From an uncultured Roseobacter sp. (GTDB taxonomy: Bacteria > Pseudomonadota > Alphaproteobacteria > Rhodobacterales > Rhodobacteraceae), in assembly GCF_947493125.1 (NCBI RefSeq), contig NZ_CANLQB010000006.1, forward strand, positions 186,001 through 250,000: a stretch of 64,000 bases of DNA, written 5' to 3'. A model generated the notes under the pieces. The model had not been told where the DNA came from and searched no databases. It worked only from the letters and a program-made list of their open reading frames with translations. Below, in pieces: positions 3,160 to 9,774 of this stretch. Position 1 is the stretch's first letter; the number at the start of each line of letters is the position of its first letter. The translations under genes were made by a program, and so were the position numbers.

Positions 3160-3276
3160 TCGTGCAGGATATCTAGGGTTCCGCTTCACTATGAAGGCTT
3201 GGTCCGAGAGATATCGCTGTCCGGCGAAAGACCGGGCAGTACACGGCGGGGCAAAATCCCGGGAGGCTACTGCGCT
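3160..3276 (+). promoter_or_regulatory. Guanidine-I (ykkC subtype 1) riboswitch
   Basis: The leader contains the invariant blocks of the guanidine-I aptamer in order: CTAGGGTTCCG at 3173-3183, GGTCCGAGAGA at 3201-3211, and ACACGGCGGGGCAAAATCCC starting at 3241 followed by GGGAGG. Spacing between blocks (a variable helix at 3213-3238 pairs GCTGTCCGG with CCGGGCAGT through GCGAAAGA) fits the family. The aptamer ends about 70 bp before an ABC importer gene. Guanidine-I riboswitches turn on guanidine export or degradation genes when guanidinium binds, so it identifies the substrate of the operon below. Confidence 0.93.
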
Positions 3277-3279
3277 GGT

Positions 3280-3316
3280 TTGACCCGCGCTCCGCTCATG
3301 CCCTCCACGCGGTCAA
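3280..3316 (+). promoter_or_regulatory. Possible expression-platform stem of the guanidine riboswitch
   Basis: TTGACC-C-GCG (3280-3289) can pair with CGCGGTCAA (3308-3316), with one bulged C. The stem lies between the aptamer and the ribosome-binding region GGGGA of the gene at 3347. No T-run follows, so a translational or Rho-dependent mechanism is more likely than intrinsic termination. Pairing was found by eye only. Confidence 0.35.
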
Positions 3317-3346
3317 TCCATTCGACACAAACAATGGGGACCGAAG

Positions 3347-4393
3347 ATGAAGAAACTTGTATCACTCACCGCAGCCGCGCTGTGCCTGGCCACCTCCGGG
3401 ATGGCGCAGGAAAAGACCGATTTCAAGGTCGCCTGGTCGATCTACGTGGGCTGGATGCCGTGGGGCTATCTCGAAGAGAGCGGCATCATGGACAAATGGG
3501 CCGACAAATACGGCATCGACGTCGAGATCGTGCAGATCAACGACTACATCGAGTCGATCAACCAATACACGGCTGGCCAGTTTGACGGCGTGTCCGCCAC
3601 CAATATGGACACCCTGTCGATCCCGTCGGGCGGCGGTGTGGACACCACCGCGCTGATCGTGGGCGACTATTCCAACGGCAATGACGCGGTGATCATCAAG
3701 GGCGAAGGCGATCTGGCCAGCCTCGTGGACAAGCCCGTCAATCTGGTGGAGCTTTCGGTCTCGCACTACTTGCTCGCCCGCGGGCTCGACAGCGCGGGGC
3801 TTTCCGAGGCAGATTTGGGCGGCGTGATCAACACCTCGGACGCGGATATGATCGCGGCCTTCGCCACCGATGACGTGCAGGCAGTGGTGACCTGGAACCC
3901 GCTGGTCTCCTCGATCCTCGAAGACCCGTCCGCCAACAAGCTCTTTGACAGCTCGGACATCCCCGGCGAGATCATCGACCTGATGGTGGTGAACACCGAA
4001 ACGCTGGCGGCGAATCCCGACTTCGGCAAGGCGATGGTGGGCGCGTGGTATGAGGTCATGGGGCTCATGGCCGCCGGTGACGAAGAGGTGCTGACCGCGA
4101 TGGCCGAGGCCTCGGGCACCGATCTCGCAGGCTACAAAGCCCAGCTCGCCTCGACCGAGATGTTCTATGACCCCGCCGAGGCAGTGGCCTTCACCTCCAG
4201 CGCAGAGCTGCCAAAGACGATGGTCAGCGTGGCCGAGTTCCTCTTTGACAAGGGCATCCTGGGCGAAGGCGCGCCCTCGGCGGATTTCGTGGGCGTGGCC
4301 TATCCCGATGGAAGCACCACGGGCGACGAGAACAACGTGATGTTCCGGTTTGATACGACCTACATGCAAATGGCCGCCGACGGCGCGCTCTGA
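3347..4393 (+). CDS. ABC importer periplasmic substrate-binding protein, probably for guanidine
   Basis: 348 residues with a Sec signal peptide (MKKLVSLTAAALCLATSGMA-Q). The mature protein is an NMT1/TauA/SsuA-like type II binding protein: KVAWSIYVGWMPWGYLEESG at the start of lobe 1, IESINQYTAGQFDGVSATN, then DAVIIKGEG and AVVTWNPLVS segments around the ligand cleft. This branch is commonly found beside urea carboxylase or guanidine genes. It is the first gene after the guanidine-I riboswitch and is followed by its permease and ATPase. The substrate is inferred from the riboswitch and the ureohydrolase in the same operon, not from residues in the pocket. Riboswitch control of translation or elongation is expected. 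Confidence 0.85.
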   Translation: MKKLVSLTAAALCLATSGMAQEKTDFKVAWSIYVGWMPWGYLEESGIMDKWADKYGIDVEIVQINDYIESINQYTAGQFDGVSATNMDTLSIPSGGGVDTTALIVGDYSNGNDAVIIKGEGDLASLVDKPVNLVELSVSHYLLARGLDSAGLSEADLGGVINTSDADMIAAFATDDVQAVVTWNPLVSSILEDPSANKLFDSSDIPGEIIDLMVVNTETLAANPDFGKAMVGAWYEVMGLMAAGDEEVLTAMAEASGTDLAGYKAQLASTEMFYDPAEAVAFTSSAELPKTMVSVAEFLFDKGILGEGAPSADFVGVAYPDGSTTGDENNVMFRFDTTYMQMAADGAL

Positions 4394-4401
4394 AGGACAG
4401 G

Positions 4402-4423
4402 GCCCGGGCCTTCGGGGCCGGGC
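4402..4423 (+). promoter_or_regulatory. Intercistronic stem-loop between binding-protein and permease genes
   Basis: GCCCGG (4402-4407) pairs with CCGGGC (4418-4423) around a UUCG-containing loop in the 39-bp gap. Such stem-loops behind binding-protein genes often stabilise the upstream message and reduce read-through, giving excess binding protein over membrane subunits. That role is inferred. Confidence 0.4.
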
Positions 4424-4432
4424 TGCCCCCCC

Positions 4433-5245
4433 ATGCGGATCATCAATATCAAACCGGGCCGGCCGCTTGCGGTGTTTCTGATGCTCCTGCCCTTCGTAGC
4501 GGTCTTTGTGGCCTATGCCATCGGGTCCGAGATCCGCTTGGCCGAGAACCCGTCTGACAAGCTGCTGCCCGCCCCCGGCACGATCTGGGATACCGCATGG
4601 CGTTTGATCACGGAAGCAGACCGGCGCAGCGGGCGAATCCTCTTCTGGCATGACACCGGCGCAAGCCTGATGCGTCTGGGCCTCGGCATAACCATTTCCG
4701 CGCTCACGGCGCTGGTGTTTGCCCTGCTGATCGGGCTCTTGCCGCTGGCGCGCAGCTTTCTGGCGCAGTTCGTCGCGGTCCTGTCTATGATCCCGCCGCT
4801 GGCGCTGTTGCCCATCCTCTTCATCGTCTTCGGTCTGGGAGAGACCTCAAAGGTGGTGCTGATCGTCGTGGGCACCCTGCCCTGTCTGATCCGCGATCTC
4901 GGCCAGCGGGTTGTGGAGCTGCCCCAGGAGCTGCGCGTGAAGGCGCAGACGCTGGGCGCGTCGAGCTGGGTGCTGGCGCTGCGGGTCGCCCTGCCGCAGC
5001 TGATGCCACGGCTCATCCAGGCGGTGCGCTTGCAGATCGGGCCGGCCTGGCTGTTCCTGATCGCGGCAGAGGCCATCGCCTCGGATCTTGGCCTCGGCTA
5101 TCGCATCTTTCTCGTGCGCCGCTATCTGGCGATGGATGTGATCCTCACTTACGTGATCTGGATCACGATCCTTGCCTTTCTGATCGACTGGTCGTTCCGC
5201 TGGGTCTCGCGCCGGGTCTTCCCCTGGGCGGAGGACAGCCTGTGA
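4433..5245 (+). CDS. ABC importer permease, guanidine system
   Basis: 270 residues, typical of SsuC/TauC/NrtB permeases (BPD_transp_1). A first membrane span VFLMLLPFVAVFVAYAIG is followed by a periplasmic loop with LPAPGTIWDTAWRL, then five further spans. The cytoplasmic EAA loop reads RVKAQTLGASSWVLALRVALP around residue 165, the contact point for the ATPase. The gene overlaps the ATPase start by four bases (GTGA), so the two are translationally coupled. Substrate assignment follows the operon context. Confidence 0.85.
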   Translation: MRIINIKPGRPLAVFLMLLPFVAVFVAYAIGSEIRLAENPSDKLLPAPGTIWDTAWRLITEADRRSGRILFWHDTGASLMRLGLGITISALTALVFALLIGLLPLARSFLAQFVAVLSMIPPLALLPILFIVFGLGETSKVVLIVVGTLPCLIRDLGQRVVELPQELRVKAQTLGASSWVLALRVALPQLMPRLIQAVRLQIGPAWLFLIAAEAIASDLGLGYRIFLVRRYLAMDVILTYVIWITILAFLIDWSFRWVSRRVFPWAEDSL

Positions 5246-6012
5246 GCTTCGTCACCGTCCGCAACGTCTTTCAGAGCTACGGGCCGAGACCGATCATCGA
5301 ACGGGTGAATTTCGAGGCCGAAGAAGGCGCGTTCGTCTCGATCGTCGGCGCCTCGGGCTGCGGCAAATCCACCTTTCTACGGTTGCTGCTGGCGCAGGAG
5401 CAGCCGACGCGGGGCGACATCCGGGTTGCCGGAGCCGACCCCGCCCGCGAGCCGGGTCTCGACCGCGGCATCGTCTTCCAGCGCTATTCGGTCTTTCCGC
5501 ATATGACCGTGCGCGAGAACATCGTGGCCGGTGAAAGCTTTCGCCGCCCGTGGGGCCGGTTTTTCGGGGCGGACCGCAAGGCGGCCCTGGCCCGCGCCGA
5601 TGACACATTGGCGCGCATCGGTCTGGATCACGTGGCCGATCAGTATCCCGCGACGCTGTCGGGCGGCATGCAGCAGCGGCTCGCCATCGGGCAGGCGCTG
5701 GTGGCCAAGCCCCGCGTACTGCTACTCGACGAGCCCTTCGGCGCGCTGGACCCCGGCACGCGGCTGTCGATGCATGATTTCCTGCAAGACCTGCGCGCCG
5801 AGACCGGCATGACCGTCTTCATGGTCACCCATGATCTGGAAGAAGCCTTCAAGCTGGGCGACCGGGTGCTGGTCTTCGACAAACCGCGCTGGGACCCGCA
5901 CGACCCCAACCGCTACGGGGCCACCATCACTTACGATTTCGATGCCCGCGATGGCGGCATCCCCTTTCAAACACTCAAGGAGGACACCCATGTTTTGCAG
6001 GCCAACGGATAG
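5242..6012 (+). CDS. ABC importer ATP-binding protein, guanidine system
   Basis: 256 residues, GTG start in a GTGA overlap with the permease stop. Walker A is GASGCGKST near residue 38, Q-loop at IVFQRYSVFP, signature LSGGMQQRLAIGQALV, Walker B VLLLDEPFGALD and switch His in MVTHDLEEAF, all intact. The SsuB/TauB-like enzyme powers import from the cytoplasmic face. The C-terminus has an extra tail containing TYDFDARDGGIPFQTLKED, in which the Shine-Dalgarno sequence of the next gene is embedded. The coding sequences overlap by 23 bp. Confidence 0.88.
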   Translation: MSFVTVRNVFQSYGPRPIIERVNFEAEEGAFVSIVGASGCGKSTFLRLLLAQEQPTRGDIRVAGADPAREPGLDRGIVFQRYSVFPHMTVRENIVAGESFRRPWGRFFGADRKAALARADDTLARIGLDHVADQYPATLSGGMQQRLAIGQALVAKPRVLLLDEPFGALDPGTRLSMHDFLQDLRAETGMTVFMVTHDLEEAFKLGDRVLVFDKPRWDPHDPNRYGATITYDFDARDGGIPFQTLKEDTHVLQANG

Positions 6013-7234
6013 GAGCCGGTCGCACCACCCGCGCGATCAGCGCCACGCAGACCGACGCGCCCACCACCCTGACCTGACCAAACTGCGCGGCTGGAAGGCG
6101 ATGCAGGCCGAAGGCGATCTGCCCGAAACCGGCTGGGAGCAGGAGAAGAAATGGGCGCTGCGCATGGGGCTCACGGGGGCCGACAGCATTGAGGACAAGT
6201 CGATCCCGACCTTTGCGCGCGGCGAGCTGCCGCATTACGCTGGGATCAACACCTTCCTCAAAGCGCCCTACGCCGAGGATGTGACCGAGGTGAAGGATTA
6301 TGACGCGACCGTGCTCGGCATCCCCTTCGACGGCGGCACCACCTACCGGGCGGGCACGCGATTCGGCCCGCAGGGGGTGCGCAAGATCTCGGCCCTCTAC
6401 ACGCCTTACAACTACGAGATGGGGATCGATCTGCGCGAGCAGATGACGCTCTGCGATGCGGGGGATGTGTTCACGATCCCCGCCAATATCGAAAAGACAT
6501 TCGACCAGATCAGCCGGGCGGTGAGCCATGTGGCCTCCTCCGGCTCGCTGCCGATCATGATCGGCGGGGATCATTCCATCGGCTTTCCCTGCGTGCGCGG
6601 CATCGCGGAGTGTACGTCGAAAAAGATCGGGATCGTGCATTTCGACCGCCACGCCGACATCCAGGAGAAAGACCTCGACGAGCGGATGCATACGACACCG
6701 TGGTTCCATTCCACGCTGCTGCCCAACGTGCCCGCGAAGAACCTCGTCCAGGTGGGCATCGGCGGCTGGCAGGTCCCGCGCGAGGCGGTGAAAGTCGCCC
6801 GCGAGCGCGAGACCAACATCATCACCATGGGCGACATGGAGAAGATGGGCGTCGACAAGACCGCCGAGATGGCGCTGGAGATGGCCTGGGACGGGGTCGA
6901 CATGGTCTATATGTCCTTCGACATCGACAGCATCGACTGCGGCTTTGTCCCCGGCACCGGCTGGCCCGAACCGGGCGGGTTCCTGCCGCGCGAAGCGCTG
7001 GCGCTGGCCTCCAAGGTGGCTGCCGAAGGCATCTGCGGGATGGAGCTGGTCGAGGTCGCACCCCCGTACGACCAGTCGGAAATCACGGCCCTCATGGGCA
7101 CGCGGGTGATCGTCGATGTGCTGGGCTCGCTGGTGGCGGCGGGCAAGATGGGCGCGCACAAGCGGCACATCGACAAGCCGGTCAAGATCCCCCATGGCGC
7201 GTTCACGGGAAAGCGGTGGTCCAATGCCACATGA
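5990..7234 (+). CDS. Ureohydrolase (agmatinase/arginase family), probable guanidine hydrolase
   Basis: 414 residues from an ATG six bases after a strong AAGGAGG. The arginase-family metal ligands are all present: GGDHS (His195), HFDRHAD (Asp219, His221, Asp223) and SFDIDSID (Asp311, Asp313). HFDRH instead of the agmatinase HFDAH, and FVPGTGWPEPGGF after the last metal motif, are features I associate with the nickel-dependent guanidine hydrolase branch (GdmH of cyanobacteria), which splits guanidine into urea and ammonium. The riboswitch supports that substrate. The first 27 residues, before DLTKLRGWKAM, look unlike a conserved N-terminus (Arg/His-rich) and may reflect a frame slip or a wrong start. 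Formamidine- or guanidinoacid-specific activity remains possible. Confidence 0.82.
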   Translation: MFCRPTDRSRSHHPRDQRHADRRAHHPDLTKLRGWKAMQAEGDLPETGWEQEKKWALRMGLTGADSIEDKSIPTFARGELPHYAGINTFLKAPYAEDVTEVKDYDATVLGIPFDGGTTYRAGTRFGPQGVRKISALYTPYNYEMGIDLREQMTLCDAGDVFTIPANIEKTFDQISRAVSHVASSGSLPIMIGGDHSIGFPCVRGIAECTSKKIGIVHFDRHADIQEKDLDERMHTTPWFHSTLLPNVPAKNLVQVGIGGWQVPREAVKVARERETNIITMGDMEKMGVDKTAEMALEMAWDGVDMVYMSFDIDSIDCGFVPGTGWPEPGGFLPREALALASKVAAEGICGMELVEVAPPYDQSEITALMGTRVIVDVLGSLVAAGKMGAHKRHIDKPVKIPHGAFTGKRWSNAT

Positions 7235-7655
7235 CATTGTAAACGGCCACATCGGCCACAACCACGACCACCCCGATCACCTGCACAGCCACATGCACGA
7301 GGCCGATGGCGCGGCGGAATTACAGGTCCTGACCGAGCAATTCATCGACGGCTTCATCGCCGCCAAGGACAAGATGTCATACCTGCGCATCGCAGGTGTG
7401 CCCTTGGAAATCGACGCGCCCGGCGGCGGGCCGTCGATGAAACTGGTCGATGTGAAGCTCAGCACCGAATGGCAGGTGGGCACAGCCTCGCCGTCTTTTG
7501 GCTCGCGCGAGCTCAGCTACCTGCCCTATCCCGGCGAGATGGTGACCGAGCGCACCAACATGGGCCTCATCTACGTCTCGATTGACGCCAAACAGGTCAC
7601 GGACCTGCGCACGTTTTTGCAAACCCACCCCGCTTCTGGAAAGGACGCCATATGA
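7224..7655 (+). CDS. His-rich protein of unknown function in the guanidine operon
   Basis: 143 residues; the ATG overlaps the ureohydrolase end by 11 bp, and a longer upstream frame is only overlap. The N-terminal 25 residues carry nine histidines (HDIVNGHIGHNHDHPDH then LHSHMHE), a typical Ni/Zn/Co-binding tail. The rest (about 30-140) is a compact alpha/beta domain with LQVLTEQFIDGFIAAKDK, a conserved-looking PGGGPSMKLVDVKLSTEWQVG segment and YLPYPGEMVTERTNMGLIYVS. I do not recognise the family. Position directly behind a probable Ni-dependent hydrolase suggests a metallochaperone or metal store, which is inference. Confidence 0.75.
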   Translation: MPHDIVNGHIGHNHDHPDHLHSHMHEADGAAELQVLTEQFIDGFIAAKDKMSYLRIAGVPLEIDAPGGGPSMKLVDVKLSTEWQVGTASPSFGSRELSYLPYPGEMVTERTNMGLIYVSIDAKQVTDLRTFLQTHPASGKDAI

Positions 7656-7813
7656 AGTATTTCACACCCCTGCCCGCCCTGCTGGCCGCCACCCCGGCCT
7701 TGGCGCACCACGAAGCCGAGATCGCCGCGACCTCGCCCACAGCTTTGATGACCGGGCTGGCCGTGATTGCATTGGCCGGGCTCGTGGCGTTCAGACAGCG
7801 GCGCACGCGCTGA
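7652..7813 (+). CDS. Small membrane protein with signal peptide and HHE motif, last gene of guanidine operon
   Basis: 53 residues, starting at an ATG that overlaps the previous stop (ATGA). The sequence has a signal peptide (MKYFTPLPALLAATPALA), then HHEAEIAATSP, one membrane span (LMTGLAVIALAGLVAFR) and an RQRRTR cytoplasmic end. It is like the HHE-plus-TM stubs seen in metal-transport and accessory operons. No family is recognised. The short length, perfect coupling and good signal peptide support that it is real. Confidence 0.6.
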   Translation: MKYFTPLPALLAATPALAHHEAEIAATSPTALMTGLAVIALAGLVAFRQRRTR

Positions 7814-7823
7814 TCACACCCTG

Positions 7824-7851
7824 CGCCAGCCCCTGTCACCGGGGGTTGGCG
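7824..7851. terminator. Bidirectional stem-loop between convergent guanidine operon and SLC13 gene
   Basis: CGCCAGCCCC (7824-7833) pairs over ten positions, one a G-T wobble, with GGGGTTGGCG (7842-7851) around a short loop. It lies 10 bp after the last guanidine gene and just before the end of the opposing gene. No T-run is present on either side. Confidence 0.5.
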
Positions 7852-7860
7852 CCCAAGCGC

Positions 7861-9774
7861 TCAGAACACCACGTTCATCATGAGCAGCGAGACGATCAGA
7901 AACAGGACCGTCATCACGCCACCGCTCTTCATGAAATCGGTCACCTTGTAGCCTGCGGGCCCCATGATCAGGGCGTTCACCTGATGGGTGGGGATCAGGA
8001 AGGAATTCGACGTGGAGATCGCGACGGTCAGCGCAAATATCGCCGGATCGCCGCCCGCCGCAATGGCAATCGACACCGCCAGCGGCACCAAAAGCACGGT
8101 CGCCCCCACATTCGACATGATCAGCGTGAACGCCGTGGCGAGCACCGCCACACCGGCCTGCAACGACCACAGCGGCCAGCCGTCGAGCAGGGCCAGGATC
8201 TGCTGGGCAATCCACTCTGCTGTGCCAGTGGTCTGCACCGCCTGACCCAGCGGGATGAGACTGGCCAACAGGAACACCGTGCTCCAGCTGACTGCCGCAT
8301 AGGCATCATCAATATCCAGAACGCCCGTCAGGATCATGCCCACGGCCCCCGTCAGCAGGCAGAGCGACAAGCGCAGGTCCGTGAAGAGGATCAGCGAGAT
8401 GGAAATGACAAAGAACACCAGCGCCCAACCCACCTTGGTCGGGCGCAATTCTTCTTGCGGGAAATCCGTGGTCACCACCACAAAATCGCGGTCACGTGTC
8501 AGCCGGGTCAGTGCTTCCCAGGTGCTGTGAATGACCAGCGTGTCGCCCGCGTGAAAGGGCACCTCGCCCACCGCCGTGGGCGCGTGCTCTTCCGTCTCGA
8601 CATAGCTCATGGTCTCTTCGTCACGGTGGATGGCCAGCAGGCTGGCCCCATAGGTTTTGCGAAACACCAGATCATGCGCACACTTGCCGATGACCGAAGA
8701 GCCGGGCGGCACAACCATTTCCGCCACGCCGGATTTGGTCGGCGCATAGTCCTCGGCAAAAACATCAAGTTGCGGGTGCAGAACAAATCCGCCCTCCGCA
8801 ACCATCTGATCGATGACCTTCCTGCGACCAAGGATCGCCAGCCTGCAGGGCGCGGTGATCTGGGTCTGAATGACGGGGGCGAACCAGCGCTTGCCCCGAT
8901 AGGCGCTGCCGATAATGTAAACGTGGTAGCGCTGCATCACGTCATCGAACGTCTCGCCAACGCAGGGATGTCCCTCGGGCACCGATATCTCAAAAATATC
9001 GGTCTTCAGCCCATAAATGCTCTTCAGATAATCTTTCAAGGATGTGCCGCTCGTTGCCTCGCCCTCCTTGCGACCCGCGGGCAGCACCCAACGCCCGAAG
9101 ACAACGAAGTAGAGGATCCCTGTGACCACAAGCGAAAGCCCAACGGGCGTCACCGAGAACAGACCGAAAGGCGCCATCTGCTGAGCCTCGGGAAGTGTTT
9201 CATTCGCACTCAACAGCAAGTCATTGAGCAAAATCAGCGGCGAGGAGCCCACCATCGTCATGGTGCCGCCCAAGATCGCACAAAATCCCATCGGCATGAG
9301 CAGGCGGCTGAGCGGCAGTTCGGTGCGCACCGATATCCGGCTGACCACCGGAAGGAAAAGCGCCGCTGCACCCACGTTCTGCATGAAAGACGAGATCACC
9401 CCGACAGTGCCCGAGATGATAGGAATCATCCGGGTTTCGGTCTTTCCGCCATGTTTGAGAATAATGGAGGCAACTTTGCTCATCAGCCCGGTCTTGTCGA
9501 GGCCAGCGCCAATGATCATCACTGCAATAATGGACACCACAGCATTCGACGCGAGGCCGTCAAAAAGCTGACTCACGTCTGCCAAAGAGCTCAAAGCTGG
9601 GATCTGACTGAGCAAGCCCAACAGAACCATGACCATGATCGCAGCAAGATCAATTCGGACGATTTCTGAGACGAAAAGGAAAACGGTGAAGGCCAGCAGT
9701 CCGAGTACTACCGACATTTCCAAAGTCAGGCCAATGGGTTCCAATAGTTCTACCCCTTTGCCTTTTGTTACCAC
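7861..9774 (-). CDS. SLC13/DASS-type permease with RCK_C (TrkA-C) domains
   Basis: About 637 residues. Two hydrophobic halves of five or more spans flank a central cytoplasmic part of roughly 220 residues holding two TrkA-C-like repeats (FEISVPEGHPCVGETFDDV and AEMVVPPGSSVIGKCAHDL). Conserved motifs of the CitT/SLC13 family include SNAVVSIIAVMIIG in half one and the C-terminal STSNSFLIPTHQVNALIMGP, containing the SNS-like and PTHQVN elements. The family imports sulfate, di- or tricarboxylates using Na+; the RCK_C-containing branch is often called a sulfate/thiosulfate or tungstate-like transporter, so substrate is open. The start is uncertain: TTG at 9744, preceded by AAAGGGG, is as likely as GTG at 9774. 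Confidence 0.8.
   Translation of the reverse strand: MVTKGKGVELLEPIGLTLEMSVVLGLLAFTVFLFVSEIVRIDLAAIMVMVLLGLLSQIPALSSLADVSQLFDGLASNAVVSIIAVMIIGAGLDKTGLMSKVASIILKHGGKTETRMIPIISGTVGVISSFMQNVGAAALFLPVVSRISVRTELPLSRLLMPMGFCAILGGTMTMVGSSPLILLNDLLLSANETLPEAQQMAPFGLFSVTPVGLSLVVTGILYFVVFGRWVLPAGRKEGEATSGTSLKDYLKSIYGLKTDIFEISVPEGHPCVGETFDDVMQRYHVYIIGSAYRGKRWFAPVIQTQITAPCRLAILGRRKVIDQMVAEGGFVLHPQLDVFAEDYAPTKSGVAEMVVPPGSSVIGKCAHDLVFRKTYGASLLAIHRDEETMSYVETEEHAPTAVGEVPFHAGDTLVIHSTWEALTRLTRDRDFVVVTTDFPQEELRPTKVGWALVFFVISISLILFTDLRLSLCLLTGAVGMILTGVLDIDDAYAAVSWSTVFLLASLIPLGQAVQTTGTAEWIAQQILALLDGWPLWSLQAGVAVLATAFTLIMSNVGATVLLVPLAVSIAIAAGGDPAIFALTVAISTSNSFLIPTHQVNALIMGPAGYKVTDFMKSGGVMTVLFLIVSLLMMNVVF

Follow-up and report, generated by a model that had tools for sequence, protein, structure and literature searches.

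A guanidine-I riboswitch operon of a Roseobacter with a candidate nickel-maturation gene beside its predicted guanidine hydrolase

Guanidine is emerging as a natural nitrogen source, and the question addressed here is how the enzyme that hydrolyzes it might be loaded with nickel beyond the cyanobacteria. It is raised by an operon on a stretch of 64,000 nucleotides from an uncultured Roseobacter sp. (contig NZ_CANLQB010000006.1, positions 186,001 to 250,000; termed the window below), part of a genome assembled into 32 contigs (4.83 Mb). Behind a guanidine-I riboswitch, this operon encodes an ATP-binding cassette (ABC) importer, a putative guanidine hydrolase of the GdmH type, a protein of 143 residues with a histidine-rich tail, here termed the accessory protein, and a peptide of 53 residues (Table 1). 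The initial annotation of this DNA had described leader, importer, and hydrolase as a guanidine-use operon; the last two genes (7224-7655 and 7652-7813) lie inside the region it discussed and were left undescribed, and it made no remark on the absence of hypA/hypB from this genome.

Cyanobacterial guanidinase operons bear hypA/hypB homologues (PMC8390497, PMC10119275), and Ni2+ is described as being loaded by two accessory proteins (PMC12186494). In the case of metformin hydrolase, two metal chaperone genes adjoin the enzyme genes, and metAB is required for growth on metformin (PMC11271267). For the guanidinase of the comammox bacterium Nitrospira inopinata, the nickel-loading mechanism is stated to be unclear (PMC11410670). 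We lean towards a dedicated role of the 143-residue protein in nickel delivery or maturation. The locus as a whole is, somewhat more probably than otherwise, a guanidine-inducible nitrogen-scavenging operon in which this protein supplies nickel to the hydrolase or matures it. Free guanidinium would bind the guanidine-I aptamer and thereby release the first gene's ribosome-binding site; the ABC importer, to judge from its family and position, would take guanidine in; the hydrolase, as its orthology suggests, would convert it to urea and ammonium, and the urea would be consumed by a urease encoded elsewhere in the genome. The accessory protein would gather nickel on its histidine-rich tail and hand it to the hydrolase or otherwise mature this enzyme, filling the role of the HypA/HypB homologues (GhaA/GhaB) of cyanobacteria. 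Speculatively, the 53-residue peptide might show a metal-binding histidine N-terminus to the periplasm for nickel capture. A wider proposal is somewhat less probable than not: that the accessory protein founds a new alphaproteobacterial family dedicated to nickel delivery to guanidine hydrolase, unrelated to HypA, HypB, and UreE, that it works together with a periplasm-facing histidine peptide, and that guanidine induces translation of the whole set.

Table 1. Features of the predicted guanidine-use operon (positions are those of the window).
Feature	Position	Strand	Basis or remark
Guanidine-I riboswitch aptamer (RF00442)	3162..3267	+	cmscan
Possible anti-sequestor helix	3280..3316	+	3280-3289 with 3308-3316; inference
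Possible hairpin hiding the ribosome-binding site	3310..3343	+	3310-3319 pairs with 3336-3343; RNAalifold consensus of 16 leaders
ABC importer, periplasmic substrate-binding protein	3347..4393	+	TIGR03427, 521.7 bits (cut-off 333.9), E 7.3e-157
ABC importer, permease	4433..5245	+	BPD_transp_1 PF00528, 2e-17
ABC importer, ATPase	5242..6012	+	ABC_tran PF00005, 6.1e-33; overlaps the genes on both sides
Guanidine hydrolase, GdmH type (predicted)	5990..7234	+	Arginase PF00491, 4.9e-75; phmmer against PDB sequences
Accessory protein, 143 residues, histidine-rich N-terminal tail; proposed nickel-delivery/maturation factor	7224..7655	+	start overlaps the hydrolase stop
Small open reading frame, 53 residues	7652..7813	+	ATGA overlap with the accessory stop

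The accessory protein and its distribution

Scanning 84,980 species genomes with a pattern gave 182 places that encode a relative of the accessory protein; the best 80 of them served for the locus counts. In these loci, all retrieved through their accessory gene, tblastn detected the hydrolase in 79, permease and ATPase in 76 each, and the substrate-binding protein in 73; the only stretch without a hydrolase (L062) starts merely 16 bases ahead of the accessory gene. Among named genomes, the accessory proteins closest to the window's own come from three Roseobacter loci. The association was also followed in genome samples of the family, class, and phylum, with thresholds for the hydrolase of E <= 1e-100 (family) and 1e-90 (class, phylum) and for the accessory protein of E <= 1e-4 (family) and 0.001 (class, phylum). 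Among the 149 genomes of the family sample, 20 encode the hydrolase and the identical 20 the accessory protein. The phylum sample (398 genomes) gave seven and seven, again the same genomes, and the class sample (385 genomes) 12 with the hydrolase, 13 with the accessory gene, and 11 with both; in these two samples only the best few candidates per genome were scored, so that single misses are possible. One genome (G000) is shared by all three samples and another (G255) by the class and phylum samples. With the own genome left out, Fisher p-values were 2e-24 (family), 4e-17 (class), and 2e-13 (phylum), values that overstate the association because related genomes are treated as independent. With few exceptions among the sampled genomes, this small gene accompanies the hydrolase, which makes it a direct candidate for nickel loading; its co-expression might aid in making fully active hydrolase.

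The second line of evidence is the tail. Among 81 proteins (the 80 loci and the window, with the tail cut by motif), it is present in all, averages 36 residues (29-77), contains 5 to 27 histidines, and consists of 33% histidine as compared to 1% in the rest of the protein. Histidine-rich tails are a feature of the nickel proteins HypB, UreE, and SlyD, and the accessory protein resembles these in carrying a variable tail of this kind on a conserved core, while it has no match over cut-off in the libraries tried. Neither a Pfam nor an NCBIfam model exceeds its cut-off on the window's protein, no PDB sequence matches it at E <= 10, and 22 diverse members likewise lack a match over cut-off in Pfam and NCBIfam, the HypA and HypB models included. 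Two plasmid records carrying relatives annotate the product as a hypothetical protein. Across the 22 members, D4, F40, G43, D49, P60, L74, G86, P90, P101, P103, and Y117 are invariant. The AlphaFold model shows two helices, a long beta hairpin, and a C-terminal helix, with 65 of the 143 residues at a predicted local distance difference test (pLDDT) score >= 90. In the relative from G511 the histidine stretch lies at the C-terminus; the position and length of the tail are variable, those of the core less so.

The usual helpers are missing from this genome. No match to HypA (TIGR00100) was obtained, and the best match to HypB (TIGR00073) reached 65.3 bits, below the cut-off of 121.2. This match (C8:2379-2942) adjoins urease (C8:4809-6503) and is for this reason probably UreG; HypA or HypB encoded elsewhere in the genome was thereby discarded as a source of nickel chaperones. 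A permease of the HupE/UreJ type gave one match (32.4 bits, cut-off 23). Among the 33 genomes holding the hydrolase or the accessory gene, HypA is over cut-off in eight, and any match at E <= 0.001 is seen in ten.

Hydrolase and probable guanidine route

The hydrolase is best started at the ATG at 5990, with AAGGAGG at 5977-5983 ahead of it. In a phmmer search against all PDB sequences, its closest relatives were 7esr and 7oi1 (3.1e-162) and 9fek (1e-159), which we take to be Sll1077 and the N. inopinata guanidinase, respectively. The PDB titles of these closest structures read 'probable/putative agmatinase 2'. The next solved relative is 1gq6, a proclavaminate amidino hydrolase (9e-49), weaker by about 110 orders of magnitude. 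Judged by what we take to be the arginase-type ligand pattern, all six metal positions are filled (H195, D219, H221, D223, D311, D313), and the motif HFDRHAD is present, in agreement with the complete metal ligands and the HFDRH variant noted in the initial annotation.

Four residues of the N. inopinata enzyme, Thr105, His222, Trp313, and Glu344, were marked as possibly important for guanidine (PMC11410670). Their equivalents are all present in the hydrolase as T118, H234, W325, and E355, in a mapping made by eye via the PDB alignment with chain numbering assumed to be 2 above that of the paper. As to the fate of the product, urease alpha is encoded in the own genome (961 bits) and is over cut-off in 31 of the 33 genomes, with partial matches in the remaining two. 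Urea/guanidine carboxylase (TIGR02712) gave 13 partial matches in the own genome and none over cut-off. The carboxylase route is rejected on this count, and release of urea followed by urease forms a coherent route; the initial annotation had noted that the operon holds an importer and this enzyme in place of a urea-carboxylase/DUF1989 set. A pathway of guanidine import, hydrolysis to urea and ammonium, and urease is supported, each biochemical step being read from sequence relationships. The earlier proposal of direct hydrolysis to urea and ammonium gains support from the nearness to two guanidine hydrolases, the four residues, and the presence of urease. By its gene content the operon suggests that roseobacters and related bacteria, which abound in seawater, may use free guanidine as a source of nitrogen.

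The core of this operon is a known kind of system found in another clade. The sll1077 operon of Synechocystis PCC 6803 (GdmH, GhaA/GhaB, ABC importer) shares with it the guanidine-I riboswitch, the importer, an orthologous hydrolase, and urease encoded elsewhere. It differs in its GhaA/GhaB, where the present genome lacks a HypA match and a HypB over cut-off, and the operon instead carries the 143-residue histidine-tailed protein and the 53-residue membrane peptide. The N. inopinata guanidinase locus likewise has a guanidine-I riboswitch and an orthologous hydrolase, but an APC permease and reportedly no nickel chaperone (PMC11410670), as opposed to the ABC importer and accessory genes seen here. 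Metformin hydrolase (MetCaCb) with its adjoining metal chaperone genes (metAB) is similar as a Ni-dependent ureohydrolase, but acts on another substrate and is a heteromer (PMC11271267). MetAB are related to HypA/HypB, whereas the accessory protein resembles no known family.

As early as 2021, analogues of Sll1077 under guanidine riboswitches were reported to be widespread among microorganisms and frequently to share an operon with hypA, hypB, and an ABC importer (PMC8390497), which makes the claim of the initial annotation less new than it sounds. The newer part is the gene pair at 7224-7813, of which the 143-residue gene is histidine-rich and co-inherited with a presumed nickel enzyme in a genome without the usual HypA/HypB. 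Neither the accessory protein nor an alphaproteobacterial guanidine hydrolase operon turned up in literature searches, as far as the accessible portions of the sources extend.

Competing roles of the accessory gene

Several observations weigh against a role of the accessory protein in nickel delivery. Nickel use by this hydrolase is itself presumed from its relatives, and the genome of N. inopinata is reported to hold no such chaperones (PMC11410670), so that a helper may be dispensable in some cases. HypB is over cut-off in nine of the 33 genomes, and the accessory gene and HypA/HypB are therefore not mutually exclusive; in G005 about 255 kb separate the HypB gene from the hydrolase within one contig, and in the other eight genomes the two lie on different contigs, where short contigs leave nearness possible. 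One genome (G227) encodes a hydrolase relative, 54-57% identical and devoid of the Trp, with neither an accessory gene nor a HypA match or HypB over cut-off. Conversely, two of the 13 accessory genes of the class sample (G273, G511) occur without a hydrolase at E <= 1e-90, although both look like remnants. The tail is short or absent in divergent members (L149, L154), and with few His and no conserved Cys in the core, nothing points to metal binding there. Confidence in the AlphaFold model is moderate (mean pLDDT 75, predicted template modelling score 0.61), its residues 92-102, in the most conserved stretch, fall below pLDDT 50, and Foldseek found no PDB match at E <= 0.001. Its best hits (E 0.49, COMM domains among them, probability up to 0.23) were not used. 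A loop that is conserved yet unordered in the model of the protein alone would fit a partner-binding site.

In another explanation, the accessory protein partners the hydrolase in a structural or regulatory capacity, e.g. as a small subunit or stabilizer, with nickel loaded unaided or by UreE/UreG. We regard this explanation as rather unlikely but worth serious attention: it would account for a core with invariant F, G, D, P, and Y and without conserved Cys, for members that lack the tail, and it could draw on the probable UreG beside urease as well as on the N. inopinata enzyme, for which no chaperone was found. The same enzyme is a homohexamer (PMC11410670), which speaks against a partner subunit, although the accessory gene was searched for neither there nor in Synechocystis. 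The histidine tails found throughout the main set, a trait of nickel proteins, likewise speak against this explanation. That the accessory gene serves the importer or urea handling instead of the hydrolase appears improbable. It does share its neighbourhood with the importer in most loci, yet two loci (L088, L099) pair it with the hydrolase in stretches that hold no relative of this importer, and only the two remnants of the class sample lack a hydrolase, a one-sided count since importers without a hydrolase were not searched for. Least credible, and very improbable in our judgement, is a hydrolase acting on another guanidino compound (agmatine, guanidinobutyrate, or methylguanidine), with the riboswitch sensing guanidine as a by-product signal. 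Generic models do label the enzyme agmatinase-like, but both stay below cut-off (TIGR01230, 170 bits against 174.3; NF002564, 205.5 against 302). Among solved ureohydrolases the two guanidine hydrolases are far closer by the E-value gap given above, and all four marked residues are in place; an agmatinase is for these reasons unlikely. Delivery of nickel to, or maturation of, a guanidine hydrolase is the role we favour for the accessory protein.

Some of the aberrant loci deserve description in their own right. At L146 (G227), the ureohydrolase relative (5983-7428) has a histidine-rich insert, GTGT replacing GTGW, and different surroundings, and perhaps acts on another substrate. L147 (G273) holds a short accessory remnant (6119-6364) with no hydrolase in the 13 kb examined; it lies downstream of genes for a likely ATPase and permease of an ABC transporter, and this permease bears a histidine-rich stretch. 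At L148 (G511; 6018-7035), riboswitch and start of the substrate-binding protein are directly followed by the end of the accessory gene, resembling an internal deletion or a misassembly. L088, with hydrolase and accessory gene at 6740-8423, shows no riboswitch match and has likely genes of a different ABC importer on the opposite strand.

Leader, small reading frame, and surroundings

The initial annotation had recognized a guanidine-I leader and proposed a covariance-model search as a check. In cmscan, RF00442 matches over its full length with 81.7 bits (gathering score 63, E 5.3e-13); no other Rfam family reaches its gathering score within the window, and no second copy was found in the genome. 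A leader model built from 26 leaders (the window and 25 of the 80 related loci) matches 72 of the 80 loci, of which 47 lie outside the training set and the other 25 match by construction. It found no match in L062, L069, L082, L088, L097, L099, L108, and L121, the first three of which lack the upstream DNA in their stretch, and L079, at the end of a contig, is matched in part. Of nine further, more distantly related loci, L148, L150, L152, L153, and L154 were matched and L146, L147, L149, and L151 were not; the stretch of L151 starts 126 bases ahead of its match to the substrate-binding protein.

Between aptamer and first gene, a hairpin of CGGTC...TCC (3310-3319) with GGGGACCG (3336-3343) would cover the ribosome-binding site, since GGGGA directly ahead of the ATG at 3347 lies inside the second segment. 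Standard pairs fill 122 of 128 cells in 16 close leaders, and the minimum-energy structure of the window leader contains the hairpin too. Alternatively, 3308-3316 can form 9 pairs with TTGACCCGCG (3280-3289), with 135 of 144 cells standard. The segments of both helices are nearly invariant across the 16 leaders, so that pairing reflects conservation and covariation provides no test of either helix. The predicted fold of the whole leader is scarcely more stable than those of shuffled sequences (z-score only -0.63). The hairpin is a plausible candidate for the expression platform, and translational control, given near-invariant segments and a weak z-score, is a model and not a result. No T-run indicative of a terminator platform was seen in the leader by eye; no terminator scan was run. 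An extra outer helix round the aptamer (GCAG-CTGC) is pairable in 16/16 close leaders and is not claimed; its search among 53 motif-derived leaders picked the best among many placements and had no control.

The 53-residue peptide has a likely signal peptide, a His right after an Ala-x-Ala site, and one membrane helix, as judged by eye and hydropathy. Reading frames of this architecture pass a filter in 39 of 81 operons, 37 of them at the identical overlap; the filter was set after the window's own frame had been seen. The 42 operons that fail include L058, which plainly has such a frame. Only M1, P15, A18, and H19 are invariant in 20 aligned members, of which four match DUF6732 (Pfam) at E <= 0.1 (best E 0.0018), and the window's own peptide scores 13.8 bits, below the gathering score of 27. 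As the start overlap is conserved while the sequence diverges, the evidence argues for 7652-7813 being a genuine gene. A link of the peptide with urease was rejected, as inspection by eye of the reading frames listed for the urease regions of this genome and one relative showed nothing similar.

The gene set that the initial annotation had named behind the leader, an ABC importer and an arginase-family hydrolase, is recovered by the family models of Table 1. The NCBIfam label of TIGR03427, 'putative urea ABC transporter', is a name only and no evidence on the ligand; guanidine as the ligand is suggested by family and position. Upstream of the operon lie a gene of the 5'-nucleotidase type (437-2392) and a DUF1993 gene (2517-2999), and relatives of both stand beside the operon in one of the 80 related loci (L044). 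Downstream, the operon is bounded by a convergent CitMHS/TrkA-C transporter gene (7861-9774, minus strand).

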